From Clostridioides sp. ES-S-0010-02 (GTDB lineage: Bacteria > Bacillota > Clostridia > Peptostreptococcales > Peptostreptococcaceae): a stretch of 64,000 nucleotides of DNA. Each line of letters begins with the position of its first letter. Position 1 is the stretch's first letter. Of this stretch, positions 1-27,333 are shown in pieces. The translations under genes were made by a program, and so were the position numbers. Location: contig CP067345.1 in assembly GCA_020641055.1 (NCBI GenBank), forward strand, positions 1,233,317-1,297,316. The letters are read 5' to 3'. The notes under the pieces were generated by a model. The model was not told where the DNA came from and made no database searches. It was given only the letters and a program-made list of their open reading frames with translations.

Positions 1-425
1 GTAACTTAATGCCTTATATAACAAAAATAGCAGTGGGTAAATTAAAAGAACTAAGTGTATATGGAAATGATTATCCAACTCATGATGGGACTGGAGTTAG
101 AGATTATATACATGTATTAGATTTAGCTGCTGGTCATGTAAAGGCATTACAAAAATTAGAAGAAAATCCAGGACTTGTTGTTTACAATTTAGGAACTGGT
201 AAAGGATATAGTGTTCTTGATTTAGTTAAAGCATTTTCTAAAGCCAGTGGAAAAGAGATACCATACAAAATTGTTGGAAGAAGAGCTGGAGATGTAGCAA
301 TGTGTTATGCAGATTCATCAAAAGCAGAGAAAGAACTTGGATGGAAAGCTAAATATGAACTTGAAGAAATGTGCCAAGATTCTTGGAGATGGCAAAGTAT
401 GAATCCAAATGGATACGAAGCATAA
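1..425 (+). CDS. galE: UDP-glucose 4-epimerase, C-terminal part (5' end outside window)
   Basis: This is the C-terminal third of a short-chain-dehydrogenase-type UDP-glucose/UDP-galactose 4-epimerase. The open frame already runs through base 3, so the gene starts upstream of the window. The motif [15 protein letters not shown], the following [11 protein letters not shown] stretch and the terminal W(R/K)WQ..NP.GY segment are characteristic of bacterial GalE. The enzyme interconverts UDP-glucose and UDP-galactose in the cytoplasm and feeds cell-surface glycan synthesis. It precedes a cell-wall protein gene in the same direction, about 110 bases upstream. The catalytic SxxxYxxxK part is not visible because of the truncation. 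Confidence 0.93.
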
Positions 426-535
426 AATGTATATTAAAGGGGTAAATGTAACAAATTTGTAAATGCAAGATATTGGTAATTTTATGTTATAATTAGAGGC
501 GTGTAGTTATGTTTCTAAAAGAGGGGGAAGTTATA

Positions 536-2470
536 GTGAAAAAAAGTCTAAAAAAGTATTTAGTACTAGCAATGACTTTAGTTTTAGTATTTGCATGTGG
601 TGTACCAGAATCAAGTGCAGCCAGTAAACATGTAATTATAGTAAACTCAAGAAAAAATACTCTGGGATATTTTGTAAATAGCAAGCTTGTAAAAGAATTT
701 AAAGTTGCAACAGGGAAAAAAGGTTCAGAGACACCAACAGGGAAAACAAAGGTAGTTAACAAGATAAAAAATAGACCATATTATAAAGGAAATATACCTG
801 GAGGAAGCCCAAAAAATCCATTAGGAGATAGATGGATGGGATTAGCACTAAAAGGAACTTATGGAGATACATATGGGATACATGGAAATAATAATGAAAG
901 TTCTATAGGAAAACACATTTCTGGTGGATGTATAAGAATGCACAATAAAGAGGTTAGATGGTTATTTGACCAAGTTCCAGTAGGTTCAGATGTAATTATA
1001 GATTATAGTAATGACAGTTATACTAAAATAGCAGCAAAATATAAGATAAATTTAAACCAAACAGGATGGAAAACAGAAAATGGTAAGAAGTATTATGTAA
1101 AATCTGATGGAACATACCAAAAAAATAGTTGGTTAAAAGTAAATGGAAAAATGTATTATTTTGATGCTTCAGGAGTAATGCAAACAGGATGGAAGACAAT
1201 TAATAATAAAAAATATTACTTAGGAACTGATGGAGTAAGAGTATCTGGATGGAAGGTAATAGATGGAAAAACTTATTACTTTAATTCAGATGGAGTAATG
1301 CAAACAGGATGGCAAGAAAAAGATGGCAAGAAATACTATCTAGGAAATGATGGCTTATCAGTAGTAGGATGGCAAGAAATAGATGGTAATAAGTATTACT
1401 TTGATAAAACAGGAGTAATGCAAACAGGATGGCAGCAATTAGAAGGTAAATCTTACTATTTAGACAAAGAAGGTAAAATGCTAACAGGAACTCAAAAAAT
1501 AGATGGAAAAGATTATACTTTCAATGAAGATGGAACAATAAACCCTACATGGAACACAGTTATAGGAGCAAATAGATTTGATACAGCTAAAAAAATAAGT
1601 GAAGTTGGAAATTGGGGTGCTGATAGTTCAGATACTGTTGTATTAGTAAATGGAAATGCAATAGCAGATGGAATAACAGCAACACCTTTGGCAAGTAGTT
1701 ACAATGCAACAATATTACTTACTAATACAGATAAATTACCAACTGAAACTGTTGCAGAAATGAATTTATTAGCACCTAAAACAGTAATTTTAATAGGTGG
1801 AGAAAATGCAATAAGTTCTAAATTAGAGCAAGAAATAAAGAGTACTTTTAATGCAGAGACAAAGAGAATATCAGGTCAAGATAGATATCAAACTGCTGTA
1901 AGAATAGCTAATGAACTTGGAAACAGAGAAGAAATAAAGACAGCTTATATGGTTTCTGGAAATGGAGAGGCAGATGCTCTATCTGTAGCTTCTAAAGCTG
2001 GAGAAGAAAAACAACCTATAATACTAGTTAAGAAAGATGGAATTACAGAAGAATCTTATATTTGGCTAACAGAAAGAAAATTAGAAAATGCATATTTTAT
2101 AGGTGGACCAAATGCAATTAATGATTCAACAATAGCTAAGATGAATGAAATAACTACTGAAGATGTTTCAGGAAATAGAATATATGGAAATGACAGATTA
2201 GATACTAATGCTAAAGTTATAGAAAAATTCTATGGCGATACTGATTTACAATCTGTGTTAGTTAGCAAATCAGATGCTTTAGTAGATGCTTTATCAGCTG
2301 GACCATTAGCTGCAAAATTACACTCACCAATAGTTTTAATGGATAATTCAGGATTATCAGCAGAACAAAATAGAGTATTTGCAAATAAAAAAGTTGAAAC
2401 TCCTTATCAAATTGGAGGAGGAGTATCTTATATAGGTATGGATAAATTAATAGATATTCTTAGAAAATAA
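536..2470 (+). CDS. cwp22: Cell-wall-anchored L,D-transpeptidase (Cwp22/Ldt-Cd2 type)
   Basis: A secreted peptidoglycan cross-linking enzyme of about 644 residues. The start is taken as GTG 536 because a strong GAGGGGGA ribosome site lies at 521-528; an ATG nine codons earlier would sit upstream of that site. Residues 1-29 are a lysine-rich, hydrophobic signal peptide ending near SSAAS. A YkuD L,D-transpeptidase domain follows (about 30-165), with the HGN...S.G..ISGGCIRMHN signature and catalytic Cys at about residue 132. The usual SHGCIRM is here SGGCIRM. Residues about 175-336 hold seven toxin/choline-binding-like repeats (GW....GK.YYF...G.MQTGW). Residues about 344-644 are three CWB2 repeats (GxxRxxTA), the anchoring module of C. 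difficile Cwp proteins. The family makes 3-3 peptide cross-links, which dominate C. difficile peptidoglycan. A hairpin at 2499-2557 probably terminates it. Confidence 0.93.
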   Translation: MKKSLKKYLVLAMTLVLVFACGVPESSAASKHVIIVNSRKNTLGYFVNSKLVKEFKVATGKKGSETPTGKTKVVNKIKNRPYYKGNIPGGSPKNPLGDRWMGLALKGTYGDTYGIHGNNNESSIGKHISGGCIRMHNKEVRWLFDQVPVGSDVIIDYSNDSYTKIAAKYKINLNQTGWKTENGKKYYVKSDGTYQKNSWLKVNGKMYYFDASGVMQTGWKTINNKKYYLGTDGVRVSGWKVIDGKTYYFNSDGVMQTGWQEKDGKKYYLGNDGLSVVGWQEIDGNKYYFDKTGVMQTGWQQLEGKSYYLDKEGKMLTGTQKIDGKDYTFNEDGTINPTWNTVIGANRFDTAKKISEVGNWGADSSDTVVLVNGNAIADGITATPLASSYNATILLTNTDKLPTETVAEMNLLAPKTVILIGGENAISSKLEQEIKSTFNAETKRISGQDRYQTAVRIANELGNREEIKTAYMVSGNGEADALSVASKAGEEKQPIILVKKDGITEESYIWLTERKLENAYFIGGPNAINDSTIAKMNEITTEDVSGNRIYGNDRLDTNAKVIEKFYGDTDLQSVLVSKSDALVDALSAGPLAAKLHSPIVLMDNSGLSAEQNRVFANKKVETPYQIGGGVSYIGMDKLIDILRK

Positions 2471-2498
2471 TAAAACTATATAAATAATGTATAAAATG

Positions 2499-2557
2499 AA
2501 ATTGAGATGTAAAATTCAACAGCCTAAAGCTTTGATTGTTTATATCTCAATTTTTTT
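2499..2557 (+). terminator. Probable terminator after cwp22
   Basis: A ten-base inverted repeat (AAATTGAGAT at 2499-2508, ATCTCAATTT at 2544-2553) closes a 35-base loop and runs into a T tract. The loop is long, so it is likely but not certain. Confidence 0.65.
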
Positions 2558-2627
2558 ATTACAAAATTAAGTTTAAGTTATCTAAAAATCTTGGAATATT
2601 TTCAAAACTCATATAAAATAAATATAG

Positions 2628-3491
2628 GTGATATCATCATATGTTAAGAGGGTGAGTGAAATTATAAAGAAGAAGTATATAATGTTTATTGATGAAAGTG
2701 GGAGAGCTGATATAAATCATGAGGACCCATTTACATTAACAGGAGTAATTTTTGAATATAAATACGCAGTGAGTCAAGGTGATTATGTCTGTTGTTTAAG
2801 GAAAGAGATGGATGCATTTAAAGATTATTGCTTTGGAACTAGTAATATAGGAATACACTTGACTGATATATCCAGAAAGTCAAGAGCATTTGAAAGGTTT
2901 GATGATTCACAAATTAAGTTATTTTATGATGAATTACCTTTATTTCTATCTAAACTAGAGTGCACCATAATATCAGTAACAGTAGATAAGGCTAGATTAA
3001 AAAAATACTATGCACCTTCAAAGGAACCTTATGTTGTAGCTTTTATACATGTGCTTCAAAATTTCTATTCATTTGTAAATAATGAAAATGTAGAGTCTGC
3101 AAGAATCGTTATTGAATCAAGAGATGATGTTTCAAATTTAAAAGTACAAAAGGCATTTTTTGATGTTTTTAATAATGGAACAATATATTTAGATATAGAT
3201 GAAGAGTTAAGAGACAAGGTAAAAGGTTTTATAATTGCCAAAAAGGAAGATGTAGATTACAAAGAAGGTTTAGAAATAGCTGATATTCTATGTAATCCTC
3301 TTAGTAGAGCTAGAAGAGGATTAATAGAAGCAAATCCAAAATGTGTGCAATATGGAGAAAAAAATAAAATATTTAAATCTGTAAGAAGTAAAATATACAC
3401 TCCAACTAGTTTAAATGACATAAGAAATTGGGGTTTTAAAGAAGTTCCAATTGTAGAGCCTGTCGGACCATGGCTTGAAAAAATGAGATAG
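2628..3491 (+). CDS. DUF3800 domain protein
   Basis: A protein of about 287 residues whose N-terminal IMFIDESGRAD motif and later acidic positions (GLEIADILCNPLSR near the C-terminus) match DUF3800. That family has an RNase H-like fold, is often linked to mobile or defence loci, and its activity is not established. The start is uncertain. GTG 2628 gives the longest frame but has no convincing ribosome site. GTG 2652, eight codons later, is equally plausible, since the conserved core begins only at IMFIDESG. A four-codon ATG...TGA frame at 2641-2655, preceded by AGGTGA, ends on top of GTG 2652 and could couple translation. The gene stands alone; a consensus promoter for another transcript begins six bases after its stop. 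Confidence 0.75.
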   Translation: MISSYVKRVSEIIKKKYIMFIDESGRADINHEDPFTLTGVIFEYKYAVSQGDYVCCLRKEMDAFKDYCFGTSNIGIHLTDISRKSRAFERFDDSQIKLFYDELPLFLSKLECTIISVTVDKARLKKYYAPSKEPYVVAFIHVLQNFYSFVNNENVESARIVIESRDDVSNLKVQKAFFDVFNNGTIYLDIDEELRDKVKGFIIAKKEDVDYKEGLEIADILCNPLSRARRGLIEANPKCVQYGEKNKIFKSVRSKIYTPTSLNDIRNWGFKEVPIVEPVGPWLEKMR

Positions 3492-3496
3492 ATAGA

Positions 3497-3525
3497 TTGA
3501 CAAATTTTTAGAAAATTGATATAAT
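3497..3525 (+). promoter_or_regulatory. Consensus sigma-A promoter for a short RNA
   Basis: TTGACA at 3497-3502 and TATAAT at 3520-3525 are separated by exactly 17 bases, a perfect housekeeping promoter. It lies six bases after the DUF3800 stop and points into a region with no open frame, ending at a strong terminator about 110 bases on. Confidence 0.85.
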
Positions 3526-3531
3526 ATAAAT

Positions 3532-3645
3532 AACTTAGTTATTCAGGAATTGAAATACAGTTGCTGTTATATAACGCTTATTACTGAGACTCGGATGCCG
3601 ACTGTCAGTTAAGAATCTATACTTTTAGAAGTATAGATTTTTTTA
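3532..3645 (+). ncRNA. Candidate standalone small RNA (about 110 nt)
   Basis: The segment begins where the consensus promoter at 3497-3525 would initiate and ends in a perfect intrinsic terminator. The terminator has 11-base arms (AATCTATACTT 3614-3624, AAGTATAGATT 3629-3639), a four-base loop and six Ts. Upstream of it, bases 3584-3608 fold into a GC-richer hairpin of 11 positions with two mismatches and an ATG triloop. No convincing coding frame with a ribosome site is present, and the next gene (LysR) is convergent, so it is not a leader for a downstream gene. I do not recognise it as a known riboswitch or RNA class. A trans-acting regulator is an inference. Confidence 0.7.
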
Positions 3646-3661
3646 TTTTGGAAGAAACCCT

Positions 3662-3693
3662 AAAAAAGAGACTATTTAAAAATAACCTCTTTT
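3662..3693 (-). terminator. Terminator of the LysR gene
   Basis: Inverted repeat AAAAGAG...CTCTTTT with additional inner pairing. On the minus strand it is followed by a T run, just beyond the stop of the LysR gene at 3702. Confidence 0.65.
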
Positions 3694-3701
3694 ATTAATA
3701 C

Positions 3702-4583
3702 TTATAATTGAGCATTTTTAATGACAAAGTTTTTGAAATTTTTAATTGCAGGAGGCAAATATCTATCCTTTATAACTGCTAAGTAAAAATTTCTTTCCCA
3801 ACTTGGGTAAACAATTTGAATTACTTTTACTTTTGTAAACTTAAGCATAGGCATATTTGGTACTACAGCTATACCGAAATTTTTTGCAACTAATCCAGCA
3901 ACTACCTGGTCTTCTTCTACCTCATGAACTATGTTAGGTTGTTGATTTATTTTTTTAAACATGTCATCAATTATATATCTAAGTCCACTTCTTTGATTAA
4001 ATACTATTTGAGGATAAGGTATTGTCTCTTTTAAATCTATAGTATCTTTTGTAGCCAGTGGGTGGCTATATGGTACAATTAATACTAAATCTTGTTTGGA
4101 TACAGGTATAAATTCAATTCCCTTCTCTTTTTCAAGTTTTGAGCAAAAAGCAATATCGTATTTTCTTTCCTTAAGACCTTGGATAATATCAGTAGTTACA
4201 CCTGTATGAAATTTAAAGTCAATTGATTTATCAGGATTAGATTTTAAGAATCTATGAACCATATCAGGTATAAAGTCTGTACCAAGTGTTCTAAGGAAAG
4301 CTAAGTCAATTTGACCTTCACCAGTACCCGTTATCTTTAGTGACTTTACACTTGAGTCTAAGATTTCTAATGATTTTTCCACGTCTCTTAAAAATATTTT
4401 ACCATATTTAGTTAAAACTATATTTCTACCTTCCTTTTCAAATAGAGACACTCCAAGTTCACTTTCTAACAAAGAAATAGCATGACTCAAACTTGGTTGT
4501 GTTATAGATAAATTTTCTGCTGCTTTTGTATAGTGCTCTAAATGTGCCAATGTAACAAAATAGCGTAAGTGATATAAGTTCAA
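3702..4583 (-). CDS. LysR-family regulator of the shikimate/quinate-type cluster
   Basis: A 293-residue LysR-type regulator. The N-terminal winged helix-turn-helix (LRYFVTLAHLEHYTKAAENLSITQPSLSHAI) covers about residues 1-60, followed by the two-lobed effector domain. Start is a TTG at 4583 with AAAGGATG upstream. It is divergent from the cluster beginning at 4997, and a palindrome lies between them (4805-4826). By the usual LysR logic it probably activates that cluster in response to a pathway compound; a shikimate-type inducer would parallel the Listeria QuiR regulator. The inducer is inference. Confidence 0.88.
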   Translation of the reverse strand: MNLYHLRYFVTLAHLEHYTKAAENLSITQPSLSHAISLLESELGVSLFEKEGRNIVLTKYGKIFLRDVEKSLEILDSSVKSLKITGTGEGQIDLAFLRTLGTDFIPDMVHRFLKSNPDKSIDFKFHTGVTTDIIQGLKERKYDIAFCSKLEKEKGIEFIPVSKQDLVLIVPYSHPLATKDTIDLKETIPYPQIVFNQRSGLRYIIDDMFKKINQQPNIVHEVEEDQVVAGLVAKNFGIAVVPNMPMLKFTKVKVIQIVYPSWERNFYLAVIKDRYLPPAIKNFKNFVIKNAQL

Positions 4584-4804
4584 TTTTTGTTCATCCTTTC
4601 ATGAGTATCGTATTTTTTATTTGTATGTATTTAAAGAAGTTGACCTTAAAGAAGTTTTTCACATTTTTATTATATATGATTACAGCGTAATAATAAAAGC
4701 TTTTAAAGAAATTTATCGTTTTTTGTCTTAAATTTTAGATAGATAGAGTTAAGGTATATATTAATAAATTATATTATCAATAAAATCTATAAACAAAATC
4801 TATG

Positions 4805-4826
4805 AATTGATAGGAAATTATCAATT
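4805..4826. promoter_or_regulatory. Candidate LysR operator
   Basis: A perfect palindrome with eight-base arms (AATTGATA / TATCAATT) and a six-base spacer. It sits in the 413-base divergent intergenic region between the LysR gene and the shikimate-type cluster and contains the T-N11-A pattern expected of LysR boxes. Confidence 0.5.
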
Positions 4827-4996
4827 TGTTATTAATAAAGTCTCATGATACAATGAATTTATAAAATCTAGATAAAGATAAATCAAAAAAATATTTTTAT
4901 TTTTAAAGTAAAATAATGCTACTAGTAGAATAAATAAAAAAATAAAATCAAAAAAAAGATTAATTATAAAGAAATTAAAGGGGGCATATTTAAATT

Positions 4997-5845
4997 ATGA
5001 ATAATCAAAAAAATATTAACATTCCAATTACTATTAGTTCTTATACATTAGGCACAGAAGTTTCATTCCGTGATAGAGTGCGTATTGCAAAAGAAGCTGG
5101 ATTTGATGGCATCGGATTACGTGCTGAAAATTATGTGGATGCAAAAAACGCTGGAGTTACAGACGAAGAAATGCTTTCAATTCTTGATGAATATAATATG
5201 AAAGTTACAGAAGTAGAATATATAACTCAATGGGGGACTAAAGAGGATAGAACAGAAGCTCAACAAGAAAAAGAACAAAATGTTTATCATATGGCTCGTT
5301 TATTTAATGTTAAACATATAAACTGTGGTCTATTAGAAATGGTACCAGAAGAACAAATTATAACTGCATTAGGAGAATTATGTGATAGAGCAGGAGAACT
5401 TATTATAGGACTTGAGTTTATGCCATACAGCGGTGTGCCAGATTTAGCTACTGCTTGGCGTGTTGTAAAAGGATGTAACCGTGAAAATGCAATGCTTATA
5501 TTAGATACATGGCACTGGGCTAGAGCAAAACAAACAGTAGATGACCTTGCACCTGTTCCAGCAGAAAAGATAGTATCAATTCAAGTTTGTGATGTTTTAG
5601 AGACACCTTATGAAAAACTTAGAGATGAATCACTACATGACCGTGTAGCTCCAGGTGAAGGATATGGAAATACAGAAGAATTTGTAAAAATAATCAAAGA
5701 ACATAATATATCACCAGAAGTTATAGGTGTTGAAGTAATATCTGATTCTTTAGTAGCTAAAGGATTATCAACTACAGCTGAGACTGTATTTAAGGCAACT
5801 AAAAAAGTATTAGATAAAGCATGGCCAGAAGTATCTCCAAAATAA
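4997..5845 (+). CDS. Sugar phosphate isomerase/epimerase-fold protein, probable 3-dehydroshikimate dehydratase
   Basis: A 282-residue xylose-isomerase-like TIM-barrel protein (AP endonuclease family 2 fold). Candidate metal-binding segments are LEFMPY, LDTWHW and the RVAPGEG loop, where the acidic and histidine ligands normally sit. In quinate/shikimate catabolic clusters this fold supplies QuiC-type 3-dehydroshikimate dehydratase. Next to a shikimate dehydrogenase and shikimate kinase that is the best guess here, but the fold also covers many sugar and inositol isomerases. It is the first gene of the cluster, with a GGGGG ribosome site. Arginine is encoded mostly by CGT, unlike the AGA preference of the flanking genes. 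Confidence 0.8.
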
Positions 5846-5927
5846 AAATAGACTTATTCGATATTAAAGTATATAAAGCATAAAAATATAAGAAAAAAAT
5901 ATAAAACTTGAAAGGAAGGAAAACCTT

Positions 5928-7850
5928 ATGAAGATTAGTTCTATGTTTACACCTATAAAAATTGGTTCAATGACAGTTCCAAACCGTTTTGTAGTTCCTC
6001 CTATGGGAAATAATTTCGCAAACACAGATGGTACTTTAAGTGAAACTTCTAAGGCTTATTATCTTGAACGTGCCTTAGGTGGTTTTGGATTAATAACTAT
6101 AGAATCTAGTGTTGTGGATAAGAAAGCTAAAGGAGGACCTCGTAAACCTTGTTTGTATGATGATAGCACAATAGATAGTTTTAAAAATGTAATAGATGCC
6201 TGTCATAATGCAGGTTCAAAAGTATCTATACAATTACAACATGCTGGTTCTGAGGGAAATGAAAAAATTGCAGGGTATCCTTTAAAAGCTGCTTCTGCAA
6301 TACCTGCGTCAAATGGACGTAATACACCATTAGCAATAACAACTGAAGAAATATATGAACTTATAGAATCTTATGGAGATGCTGCGTTACGTGCAAAAAA
6401 AGCTGGTGTAGATGCTGTTGAAGTTCACTGTGCTCATGGATATTTAGTTAGTAGCTTTATATCACCAAGGACAAATAAACGTGTAGATGAATTTGGTGGA
6501 TGTTTTGAAAATAGAATGAGATTACCTCGCCTTATAATTGAAAATATACGTAAAAAGGTAGGTAATTCTATAGCAATACTATGTCGTATAAATAGTACAG
6601 ATGATATTTTAGGTGGAATTGATGTACATGATAGTTCAGTAATCGCAGCTTATTTAGAAGATTGTGGAGTAGATGGACTTCATGTTTCACGTAGTATACA
6701 TATACATGATGAATATATGTGGGCTCCTACAGTTCTTCATGCTGGATTTAGTGCAGATTTAGTTACAGAAATAAAGAAATCTGTTAGTATACCAGTAATA
6801 ACTGTTGGTCGCTATACAGAGCCACAATTTGCTGAATTAATGGTTCGTCAAGGTAGATGTGATTTAGTAGCATTTGGTAGACAAAGTTTAGCTGACCCAA
6901 GTATGCCTAACAAAGCTAAAAATGGGAAGTTAGATGAAATGATACCATGTATTGCGTGTCTACAAGGTTGTGTGCCAAATATGTTCCAAGGTAAGCCTAT
7001 AGCTTGTCTTGCAAATCCGATATTAGGTCATGAATCTGAACTTAAACCAGCTGAAACTACAAAAGAAGTTCTTGTTGTTGGTGGTGGTGTTGGAGGTATG
7101 CTTGCAGCATGGGTATGTGCTGAGAGAGGGCATAAGGTAACTCTAGTTGAAAAATCTGAAATGCTTGGTGGTCAAATGCGTTTAGCTGCATATCCTCCAG
7201 GTAAAGGAGATATTACTAATTTAGTTCGTAGTTATATTTCAAAGTGCAATCAATATGGTGTAAAAATATACACTAATACAGAAGTTACAGTAGAGTTTAT
7301 AAAAGAAAAATCACCTGATGCAGTTATTGTAGCTACTGGTGCAACTCCACTTGTACTTCCTATACCAGGAATTAATGAATCAGGATTAATACATGCAGTG
7401 GATCTTCTTGATGGAAAAGAATCTTGTGGAAAGAAAGTTCTTGTTGTTGGTGGTGGAATGGTTGGTTGTGAAGTGGCAGCCTTCCTTGGTGAACAAGAAC
7501 ATGATGTTACTGTTATTGAATTAAGAGAACAAGTTGGTGCAGATGTAATTTCTGAACATCGTAAATTCCTTATGGATGATTTTGAAAGTTACAATATACA
7601 TACTGTTACTGGTGCTAAAGTTGCTAAATTCTATAACGATGGAGTTGACTATTCACTTGCAGATGGAACAGAAGATAATTTAAAAGGCTTCGATTCAGTA
7701 GTACTTGCTATGGGTTCTCGTAATTATGACCCATTAAGCGAAGAAGTAAAGAAATTTGTGAATGAAACTTATGTTGTTGGGGATGCAGTAAAGGCTCGTA
7801 GAGCATTGGATGCAACAAAAGAAGCTTTTGAAGTAGCATTAAATATATAG
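5928..7850 (+). CDS. FMN/Fe-S/FAD ene-reductase (2,4-dienoyl-CoA reductase / BaiCD-BaiH family)
   Basis: A 640-residue NADH:flavin oxidoreductase. Residues 1 to about 335 form an old-yellow-enzyme TIM barrel (MFTPIKIGSMTVPNRFVVPPM, then QLQHAG, then EVHCAHGYLVSSFISPRTN). A cysteine cluster CIACLQGC...C ligates a 4Fe-4S centre (about 343-362). The C-terminal half has two dinucleotide-binding motifs (VVGGGVGGMLAA and VVGGGMVGCEVAA). Relatives reduce activated C=C bonds in dienoyl-CoA, bile acid or cyclohexene substrates. In this cluster a cyclohexene carboxylate such as shikimate or dehydroshikimate is a plausible substrate, by inference. RBS GGAAGG precedes the ATG. Arginine codons are mostly CGT. 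Confidence 0.88.
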   Translation: MKISSMFTPIKIGSMTVPNRFVVPPMGNNFANTDGTLSETSKAYYLERALGGFGLITIESSVVDKKAKGGPRKPCLYDDSTIDSFKNVIDACHNAGSKVSIQLQHAGSEGNEKIAGYPLKAASAIPASNGRNTPLAITTEEIYELIESYGDAALRAKKAGVDAVEVHCAHGYLVSSFISPRTNKRVDEFGGCFENRMRLPRLIIENIRKKVGNSIAILCRINSTDDILGGIDVHDSSVIAAYLEDCGVDGLHVSRSIHIHDEYMWAPTVLHAGFSADLVTEIKKSVSIPVITVGRYTEPQFAELMVRQGRCDLVAFGRQSLADPSMPNKAKNGKLDEMIPCIACLQGCVPNMFQGKPIACLANPILGHESELKPAETTKEVLVVGGGVGGMLAAWVCAERGHKVTLVEKSEMLGGQMRLAAYPPGKGDITNLVRSYISKCNQYGVKIYTNTEVTVEFIKEKSPDAVIVATGATPLVLPIPGINESGLIHAVDLLDGKESCGKKVLVVGGGMVGCEVAAFLGEQEHDVTVIELREQVGADVISEHRKFLMDDFESYNIHTVTGAKVAKFYNDGVDYSLADGTEDNLKGFDSVVLAMGSRNYDPLSEEVKKFVNETYVVGDAVKARRALDATKEAFEVALNI

Positions 7851-7867
7851 TTGAAATTAAATAGATG

Positions 7868-7906
7868 TTTCTTTGCAAATAATTAAATAGATTATTTGCA
7901 AAGAAA
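7868..7906 (+). repeat. Perfect 15-base inverted repeat inside the operon
   Basis: Arms TTTCTTTGCAAATAA (7868-7882) and TTATTTGCAAAGAAA (7892-7906) flank a nine-base loop between the ene-reductase and shikimate dehydrogenase genes. No T tract follows, so a plain terminator is unlikely. It may stabilise or process the mRNA, or be a protein site. Confidence 0.8.
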
Positions 7907-7933
7907 TTGATGATATTGGGAGGATATAAAATT

Positions 7934-8797
7934 ATGGAAATTTCAGGAAGAACAGGGTTATTCGCATTAATAGGTACACCAGTGGGGCATTCTAAATCAC
8001 CACTAATGTATAATTATAGTTTTGAAAAATTAGATTTAGATTATAGATACTTAGCTTTTGATATTACTGTGGACAAGGTAAAAGATGCACTTTCAGCTAT
8101 AAAAACGTTCAACATAAAAGGAGCAAATGTAACAATGCCATGTAAAACTGCTGTTACAGAATATATGGATGAACTTTCTCCAGCTGCTCGTATAATTGGA
8201 GCATGTAATACAATTGTAAATGAAAATGGAAAGTTAATTGGACATATAACAGATGGTGTTGGTTATGTTCGTAATTTAAAAGAAAATGGAGTTGAAGTAA
8301 AGGGTAAAAAACTTACGATTATGGGTGCTGGTGGTGCGGCAACTGCTATACAAGTACAATGTGCATTAGATGGAGCAAGAGAAATATCTATTTTCAATGC
8401 TAAGGATGATTTTTATAAAAGAGCGGAACAAACAATTGAAAATATAAAGAAAGAAGTACCAGAATGTATTGTTAATTTATATGATTTAGCAGATACAGAA
8501 AAACTTTATGAAGAAGTATCATCAAGTGATATTTTGACAAATGCAACGCTTATTGGGATGAAACCTCATGATAATGAAACTAATATAAAAGATGTTAGTG
8601 TATTAAGAAAAGAGTTAGTTGTAACAGATGTTGTTTATAATCCAAATAAAACAAAAATGATTGAGGATGCTGAAGCTAATGGTTGTAAAGCTATTGGTGG
8701 ATTAGGAATGTTATTATATCAAGGAGCTGAGGCTTTTAATCTATACACTGGATTGGAAATGCCTGTAGAAGAAATTAAAGAATTATACTTTAAATAG
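7934..8797 (+). CDS. Shikimate/quinate dehydrogenase (AroE family)
   Basis: About 287 residues. ATG 7934 is chosen because GGGAGGAT lies just upstream; an in-frame ATG at 7907 would precede that site. The N-terminal substrate domain has the diagnostic GTPVGHSKSPLMYN and NVTMPCK motifs with the shikimate-binding lysine. The NAD(P) domain has GAGGAATA. The C-terminal GLGMLLYQGAEAFNLYTG helix is typical of AroE. The family oxidises shikimate or quinate, or reduces 3-dehydroshikimate. Placement in a regulated cluster with a transporter and ene-reductase suggests a catabolic paralogue, as in Listeria qui clusters, not the housekeeping aroE. Substrate preference cannot be read from the sequence. 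Confidence 0.87.
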   Translation: MEISGRTGLFALIGTPVGHSKSPLMYNYSFEKLDLDYRYLAFDITVDKVKDALSAIKTFNIKGANVTMPCKTAVTEYMDELSPAARIIGACNTIVNENGKLIGHITDGVGYVRNLKENGVEVKGKKLTIMGAGGAATAIQVQCALDGAREISIFNAKDDFYKRAEQTIENIKKEVPECIVNLYDLADTEKLYEEVSSSDILTNATLIGMKPHDNETNIKDVSVLRKELVVTDVVYNPNKTKMIEDAEANGCKAIGGLGMLLYQGAEAFNLYTGLEMPVEEIKELYFK

Positions 8798-8845
8798 ACG
8801 AAAAAATAATACTTTAATAATATAGAATATATATGTATCTCAATG

Positions 8846-8884
8846 TTTTGATATTACTTTACAAAATATTTTGATATTACTTTA
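8846..8884 (+). repeat. Direct repeat, two copies of 16 bases
   Basis: TTTTGATATTACTTTA occurs at 8846-8861 and again at 8869-8884, a 23-base period. It lies in the gap before the MFS gene, immediately upstream of a foldable segment. Confidence 0.75.
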
Positions 8885-8892
8885 TAAGTTGT

Positions 8893-8959
8893 CATAGTGG
8901 GTTTTGTATCGGTGGTATAGTTAAATGTAAAAGTTTAGCTATTCTTTAAACCCATTATG
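8893..8959 (+). promoter_or_regulatory. Structured leader upstream of the MFS gene
   Basis: A 12-pair outer stem (CATAGTGGGTTT 8893-8904 with AAACCCATTATG 8948-8959, one G-U pair) encloses an inner nine-pair stem (ATAGTTAAA with TTTAGCTAT). No terminator T run follows. I do not recognise a known riboswitch consensus; it may be a cis-acting RNA or an extended protein site. Confidence 0.4.
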
Positions 8960-9017
8960 GGAATACGTTTATTGTATATAAAAATGTTAAGAAATTAACA
9001 AGAATGGGAGAATAACT

Positions 9018-16616: not shown

Positions 16617-16658
16617 CAAAAAAATATATATTCATATAGATAGAATAGAATATATATT
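16617..16658 (-). terminator. Expression-platform terminator of the purine riboswitch
   Basis: Eleven-base arms (AATATATATTC and GAATATATATT) followed on the minus strand by seven Ts. The aptamer tail GAATAGAAT can instead pair with ATTCTATTC inside this hairpin, giving a mutually exclusive antiterminator. Confidence 0.8.
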
Positions 16659-16673
16659 AAAGTTAACATTCTA

Positions 16674-16740
16674 TTCATAGAAAACTCATTTAAGGTGAGT
16701 TTGTAGAGACTATTAGACCATATTACTAATATTATATGAA
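16674..16740 (-). promoter_or_regulatory. Purine riboswitch aptamer, guanine class
   Basis: On the minus strand the 67-base element has P1 (TTCATA/TATGAA), P2 ATTAG/CTAAT with loop TAATATGG, the J2/3 CTCTAC, and P3 AAACTCA/TGAGTTT with loop CCTTAAA. The base before the closing TATGAA is C, equivalent to C74, which selects guanine or hypoxanthine over adenine. It controls the purine permease. Confidence 0.93.
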
Positions 16741-16884
16741 CATTTTCTATTTGTTTTTCTGTTGTATTATATCGTAATATTGTATTATTTACAATAAATT
16801 TAAAGAAATTATTCGTTTTTTTTGTCGATTTTATAAAAAACCGAGGTCATTTTTTATAAAGAATAATTATTTCTAAAGATAAAT

Positions 16885-26920: not shown

Positions 26921-27063
26921 AACATGGGGAAAAATGTATAAAGTATATAAAAAATAAAAAATAATAAACTTGACAAAATTTAACTAATCACTTATCATAC
27001 TATTATGAATAAATAGAAAACACAAAAGTTAACTTTTATTAAAGTAAAAATAAAACTTTAAAG

Positions 27064-27333
27064 ACGTTGAAAGGAAGAGTAGGTATAGAATGTAATTAAA
27101 GCGAGTTGGTGATGGTGTGAGACCAATATGAAGTCTATAGTGAAGAACATCCTGGAGTTGCTAACTGAAATTTTAAAAGAGTAGGCTTAGTCGGAACCAA
27201 ACCGTTATCATATTGGGATGTATCGAGTAATATCTGTACATTATGAGCTGGGTTTGAATCTATTTCAAACTAATCAGGGTGGTACCGCGGAAAAGCAACC
27301 TTTCGTCCCTTTTTATAGGGATGAGAGGTTTTT
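27064..27333 (+). promoter_or_regulatory. T-box riboswitch (asparagine)
   Basis: The leader carries the invariant T-box AGGGTGGTACCGCGG (27276-27290) followed by a terminator with arms around 27297-27333 (AACCT..TCCCT and AGGGA..AGGTT) and seven Ts. Upstream is Stem I with its distal loop pattern. The best specifier is AAC (27146-27148) in a GAAGAACATC context, the asparagine codon, which matches the downstream asparagine synthetase gene. Uncharged tRNA-Asn should stabilise the antiterminator and switch on asnA. Confidence 0.92.

Follow-up and report, generated by a model that had tools for sequence, protein, structure and literature searches.

A probable small RNA gene kept almost letter for letter across Clostridioides

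The short stretch that separates a DUF3800 protein gene from a LysR-type regulator gene in Clostridioides sp. ES-S-0010-02 raises a simple question: does it carry a small RNA gene of its own, or does it merely hold the end of a neighbouring message? We addressed this in a 64,000-nucleotide stretch of its DNA (hereafter, the window). The DUF3800 gene (2628..3491, plus strand; PF12686, E 1.1e-8) lies 5' of the interval and is itself preceded by a gene for a YkuD L,D-transpeptidase with choline-binding-type and CWB2 repeats (509-2470). On the 3' side, the LysR-type gene (3702..4583, minus strand; PF00126 and PF03466) points towards the interval.

The interval begins with a sigma-A type promoter, TTGACA-17-TATAAT with a TG before the -10, at 3497..3525 of the plus strand (-35 TTGACA at 3497-3502, 17-nt spacer, -10 TATAAT at 3520-3525). 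It agrees with the consensus at 12 of 12 positions, as the preliminary description of the locus had claimed, and is the sole exact occurrence of this pattern on either strand of the window, where dinucleotide shuffles gave a mean of 0.05 exact matches (5 of 100 shuffles held at least one). Across the whole 4.26-Mb genome we counted 31 exact matches versus 4 for a reversed-pattern control, so that some seven-eighths of these sites are in excess of the control. On the other hand, a looser promoter scan of window positions 1-9000 returned 50 sites against 51.4 expected, and terminator-like sites in the same positions numbered 2 against 2.5 expected. Since these loose scans gave no excess over shuffles, the exact promoter match alone is informative.

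Transcription from this promoter would yield a predicted small RNA at 3532..3645 (plus strand), with a start placed about 7 nt past the -10 and an end placed by the T tract. Taken from position ~3532, the RNA has a minimum free energy of -31.5 kcal/mol (z -4.59), and none of 200 shuffles was equally stable. The predicted fold consists of two hairpins followed by a U-tailed terminator. Hairpin 1 (3538..3575) is bulged and has 13 pairs; both its helices recur in the single-sequence folds of all eight Clostridioides genomes compared, with one additional pair in G004 and an outer helix in G006 and G007. Hairpin 2 (3583..3609), GC-richer, has 10 Watson-Crick pairs, two 1x1 mismatches (G.G and C.C) and an AUG loop. 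It had been described as an 11-position hairpin at 3584-3608; the coordinates hold, while two of those 11 positions turn out to be the mismatches. The intrinsic terminator (3614..3645) reads AATCTATACTT / TTAG / AAGTATAGATT at 3614-3639, with a T7 tract at 3638-3644 followed by ATTTT. Its stem of 11 pairs, which becomes 14 if pairing with the T tract is added, is evident both in the sequence and in the fold, in line with the perfect 11-base terminator reported earlier. Its absence from the terminator scan is explained by its composition, since the stem has only 2 G-C pairs and the scan requires 3.

Such a structure could belong to a known class, or could be the leader of a downstream gene. We found no Rfam 15 match at gathering score in the interval. 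The 13 sub-threshold matches in 3490-3700 all lie far below gathering (the best at 22.9 bits versus 56), and the earlier failure to assign a class is thus borne out at these cut-offs. Likewise, the 3' neighbour is convergent rather than co-directional, which rules out a leader or riboswitch of that gene, as had been argued from its orientation.

We then asked how widely the element occurs. A DNA search recovered it from all eight Clostridioides genomes, with 87-100% identity over 134-171 of the 171 query bases, and the exact 23-base core of hairpin 2 is present in C. difficile strains CD10-165, 173070, HC132 and CD160. Among 71 genomes of the family, nine matched at E up to 1e-5. Of these, G069 alone is not Clostridioides; its match covers only query positions 8-43, that is the promoter alone, in unrelated DNA, and was rejected. 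The covariance-model search of relatives that the preliminary description had proposed as a check used a model built from the eight genus sequences, which scores those same eight at 140.1-147.5 bits. At E up to 0.1 it matched 11 of the 71 family genomes, three of them outside the genus (G046, G050 and G063; E 0.02-0.09). These three matches consist mainly of the terminator stem, with upstream pairs broken or missing, and were rejected as well; in our reading, the match in G046 resembles a tRNA end followed by a terminator. The other 63 family genomes gave no credible match by DNA or covariance model. At the level of the order, 8 of 247 genomes matched with E no higher than 0.001, every one of them Clostridioides, and the other 239 gave no credible DNA match at that threshold; this sample was drawn from a larger group and searched with stricter filters, under which weak matches are lost. 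No paralogue was found in the genome itself by DNA or model search: the best remaining model match, with an E value of 0.59, is this same terminator read on the opposite strand, those after it have E values of 4.3 and 6.0, and the next DNA matches span at most about 40 bases (E 3e-4 for the element's own terminator, the others above 0.001). Plasmids gave no match to the element, and viral contigs held no exact match to a 21-base segment of hairpin 2. Two records of Phage G matched over query positions 7-43 only, which is again the promoter, and were rejected. The RNA gene is therefore kept almost letter for letter across Clostridioides, and no other genome searched yielded it.

The way in which this conservation is distributed is instructive. 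Over the eight genus genomes, the -35 is TTGACA throughout, the -10 is TATAAT in seven and TATTAT in one, and the spacer is always 17 nt long. Invariant columns amount to 6/6 in the -35, 5/6 in the -10 and 7/17 in the spacer; to 32/38 (84%) in hairpin 1, 5/7 in the linker and 26/27 in hairpin 2; and to 24/26 in the terminator stem-loop and 10/10 at 3640-3649. Past the terminator only 16 of 52 columns are invariant, in a stretch that aligns poorly. For comparison, the DUF3800 gene has 145 of 276 third codon positions (53%) and 661 of 828 positions overall (80%) invariant. Hairpin 1 is thus no more conserved than this gene as a whole (mean difference of 7.6% versus 8.0%), whereas the -35, hairpin 2 and the terminator are more constant than it. 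An invariant -35 next to a diverged spacer, together with a constant hairpin 2 and terminator, is the mark of a promoter plus a functional RNA, and the near-invariant hairpin 2 is likely its functional core. The single variable column of hairpin 2 is an A-U to G-U change, and both mismatches are kept in all eight genomes.

The same alignment agrees with the predicted fold: all 296 of 296 cells form standard pairs, versus 35-49% when the partners are slid, in a comparison whose fold was derived from the same eight sequences. Four pairs vary on one side, through exchanges involving a G-U pair; no pair varies on both. With one-sided changes only and no compensatory double change, the comparison agrees with the fold and cannot prove it. 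The covariation score is 0.042 against 0.040 for slid structures, and a letter-shuffle control is powerless here, as the observed values are attained by 500 of 500 shuffles.

With its own promoter, its own terminator and a consistent fold in all eight genus genomes, the interval fits the standalone small RNA that had been proposed for it, transcription itself being predicted. Judging from these sequence features, it is very probably genuine, conserved and functional as a small RNA gene. More specifically, we consider it rather likely that this is an independent, sigma-A-driven sRNA gene of Clostridioides whose product probably acts in trans with the assistance of Hfq. RNA polymerase with sigma A would start at ~3532, read about 113 nt and stop at the U-tailed hairpin. 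Hfq would then bind the 3' U tail, and mRNAs would pair with a segment of hairpin 1, with the linker or with hairpin 2. The genome encodes Hfq (PF17209, 104.6 bits against a cut-off of 27), and a 3' hairpin with a U tail, as present here, is a feature of Hfq-dependent sRNAs. In C. difficile, Hfq has been reported to bind sRNAs together with mRNA partners (PMC10267692).

Two observations bear on the proposed pairing with mRNAs. Most of the conserved bases of the RNA are paired in the predicted ensembles, so that few conserved positions are left free, in contrast to what a typical seed would offer. In addition, a target scan within the window, and so within some 1.5% of the genome, compared the RNA minus its terminator with 48 ORF starts. 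The best duplex, at -30.6 kcal/mol, fell short of the 1% quantile of mononucleotide shuffles (-33.0); the scan ignored accessibility. A 30-base complementarity to RNA positions 3552-3581 was found at L006 1501-1530, inside a 469-codon MutL-family gene (PF13941). The duplex is stronger than 200 of 200 shuffles in the window species (G000, -25.5 kcal/mol) and in G005 (-23.8 kcal/mol). In the other six genomes it reaches -11.2 to -16.1 kcal/mol, a strength equalled or exceeded by 36 to 125 of 200 shuffles. Since this match was picked from the whole genome for its likeness and is strong in two of eight species only, we treated it as chance.

The RNA might instead work as a structured decoy or scaffold for a protein, with hairpin 2 as the recognition site and a CsrA-titrating RNA as the nearest known idea. 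CsrA sites display a GGA in a loop, and RNAs of the CsrB/RsmY type that bind CsrA are short, hairpin-rich and GGA-containing. CsrA is encoded in this genome, the constancy of hairpin 2 and its two mismatches would suit a binding site, and each RNA contains 2 to 4 GGA triplets, one of which is largely unpaired in G003 and G002. However, this is few for a titrating RNA, and the predicted ensembles leave only 1 of 3 bases free in each of the two GGA common to all eight sequences, which sets the RNA apart from CsrB and RsmY; two of the eight have an additional GGA in a loop. We see such a protein-binding role as unlikely. A related and more tentative idea, to which we give little credence, is that hairpin 2, with its ten pairs and its G.G and C.C mismatches, is a genus-specific recognition site for a protein or for an RNA loop partner. 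If this were true, the RNA would represent a Clostridioides regulator of a class not described elsewhere.

A further explanation starts from the upstream gene: the interval could mainly supply the DUF3800 message with its 3' end and terminator, the internal promoter giving rise to a 3'UTR-type sRNA or to a by-product. The DUF3800 stop codon lies on the same strand, 5 nt upstream of the -35, and we read no terminator between the two, so that transcription of DUF3800 could run on into the RNA and its message may, judging by this arrangement, end at the RNA's terminator. Furthermore, the gene adjoins the RNA in all eight Clostridioides genomes. Yet a terminator alone would need neither an invariant -35 nor a nearly invariant hairpin 2. 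The DUF3800 protein matches 9 of the 71 family genomes at E up to 1e-10, and within these genomes it is nearly confined to Clostridioides. The single relative outside the genus (G034, 42% identity) has no RNA-model match in its genome at E up to 0.1, a comparison that reveals no functional pairing of the RNA with DUF3800. On balance, we find a role mainly as the DUF3800 3' end improbable.

Local control of the convergent LysR-type gene through overlapping 3' ends appears very improbable. The two genes do converge, with 56 nt between position 3645 and the LysR stop at 3702. However, we read an A/T-rich hairpin followed by a T run on the minus strand (~3695-3660), and this hairpin probably ends the LysR message short of the RNA. 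Moreover, in two of the eight relatives, G003 and G007 (L011 and L014), an intact RNA is followed, shortly past its terminator, by different sequence; G003 still has the LysR gene further on, after a longer gap (L050). The link between the RNA and LysR thus looks weaker than that between the RNA and DUF3800.

That the transcript is a short mRNA for a micro-peptide is barely conceivable, for no frame of more than 8 codons is common to the eight genus sequences, in agreement with the absence of a coding frame put forward previously. A 20-codon TTG frame does exist in the window species and in G005, in two of eight sequences only, and one-base gaps within hairpin 1 in three others (G001, G003 and G007) break any long frame there. 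Two shorter frames, one of 8 codons starting with TTG and one of 5 codons (ATG-CCG-ACT-GTC-AGT-stop), are kept in all eight, which may simply reflect DNA that hardly changes. By eye, no ribosome site precedes the 5-codon frame, which lies within hairpin 2, and the only candidate site for the 8-codon frame is an AGGA 12 nt upstream, which is rather far. Non-coding is accordingly offered here as the better reading of these frames.

Returning to the trans-acting sRNA that we favour, its characteristics resemble those of sRNAs already catalogued in this genus. A survey of C. difficile lists 94 intergenic sRNAs, 33 of them with predicted sigma-A promoters; they are often 100-200 nt long, nearly all lack an informative Rfam class and most are unique to C. 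difficile (PMC3649979). RCd1 and RCd6 are examples from that survey (Soutourina et al. 2013, PMC3649979). The sRNAs for which it states a place, such as RCd1, RCd2, RCd6, SQ1002 and SQ1498, sit beside other genes. Since SQ367, SQ1985 and SQ2025 are named there without a place, this RNA may be one of them or some other entry in the full list, and it may already be present in the published C. difficile sRNA tables.

The locus tags offer another route into the literature. We take the YkuD/CWB2 gene of the window to be CD2713 (cwp22), and hence the next tags to be CD2714 and CD2715. PMC11986978 gives the tag CD2713 to the YkuD protein ldtCd2. Among the matches listed for these presumed tags, one of them a host-pathogen network study, no paper was an sRNA study of the locus, as judged by their titles and the starts of their abstracts.

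Other short regulatory RNAs of the genus offer a useful comparison. SpoX (nc038), SpoY (nc020) and SpoZ (n00620/nc063) all appear in Hfq RIL-seq data, and these reports indicate that Hfq-bound sRNAs act on C. difficile sporulation (PMC10267692, PMC10602386). As described there, SpoY and a gene have a common start site, and the long form of SpoX as well as SpoZ are antisense to other transcripts. In contrast, the present RNA has, from its predicted layout, a private promoter and no antisense gene, and its link to Hfq is a proposal. In the C. difficile papers cited here, few sRNAs have a worked-out role (e.g., SpoX, SpoY and SpoZ in sporulation). On its own, the RNA described here, a new or perhaps already catalogued sRNA of a known kind, changes no principle. 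It is nonetheless a good candidate for study, because it occurs in every genus genome searched and its hairpin is far more constant than adjacent silent sites.

Elsewhere in the window, two RNA elements of known class were recognized: a purine riboswitch aptamer at 16658-16759 (minus strand; 79.1 bits, above the gathering score) and a T-box leader at 27058-27313 (plus strand; 124.5 bits).
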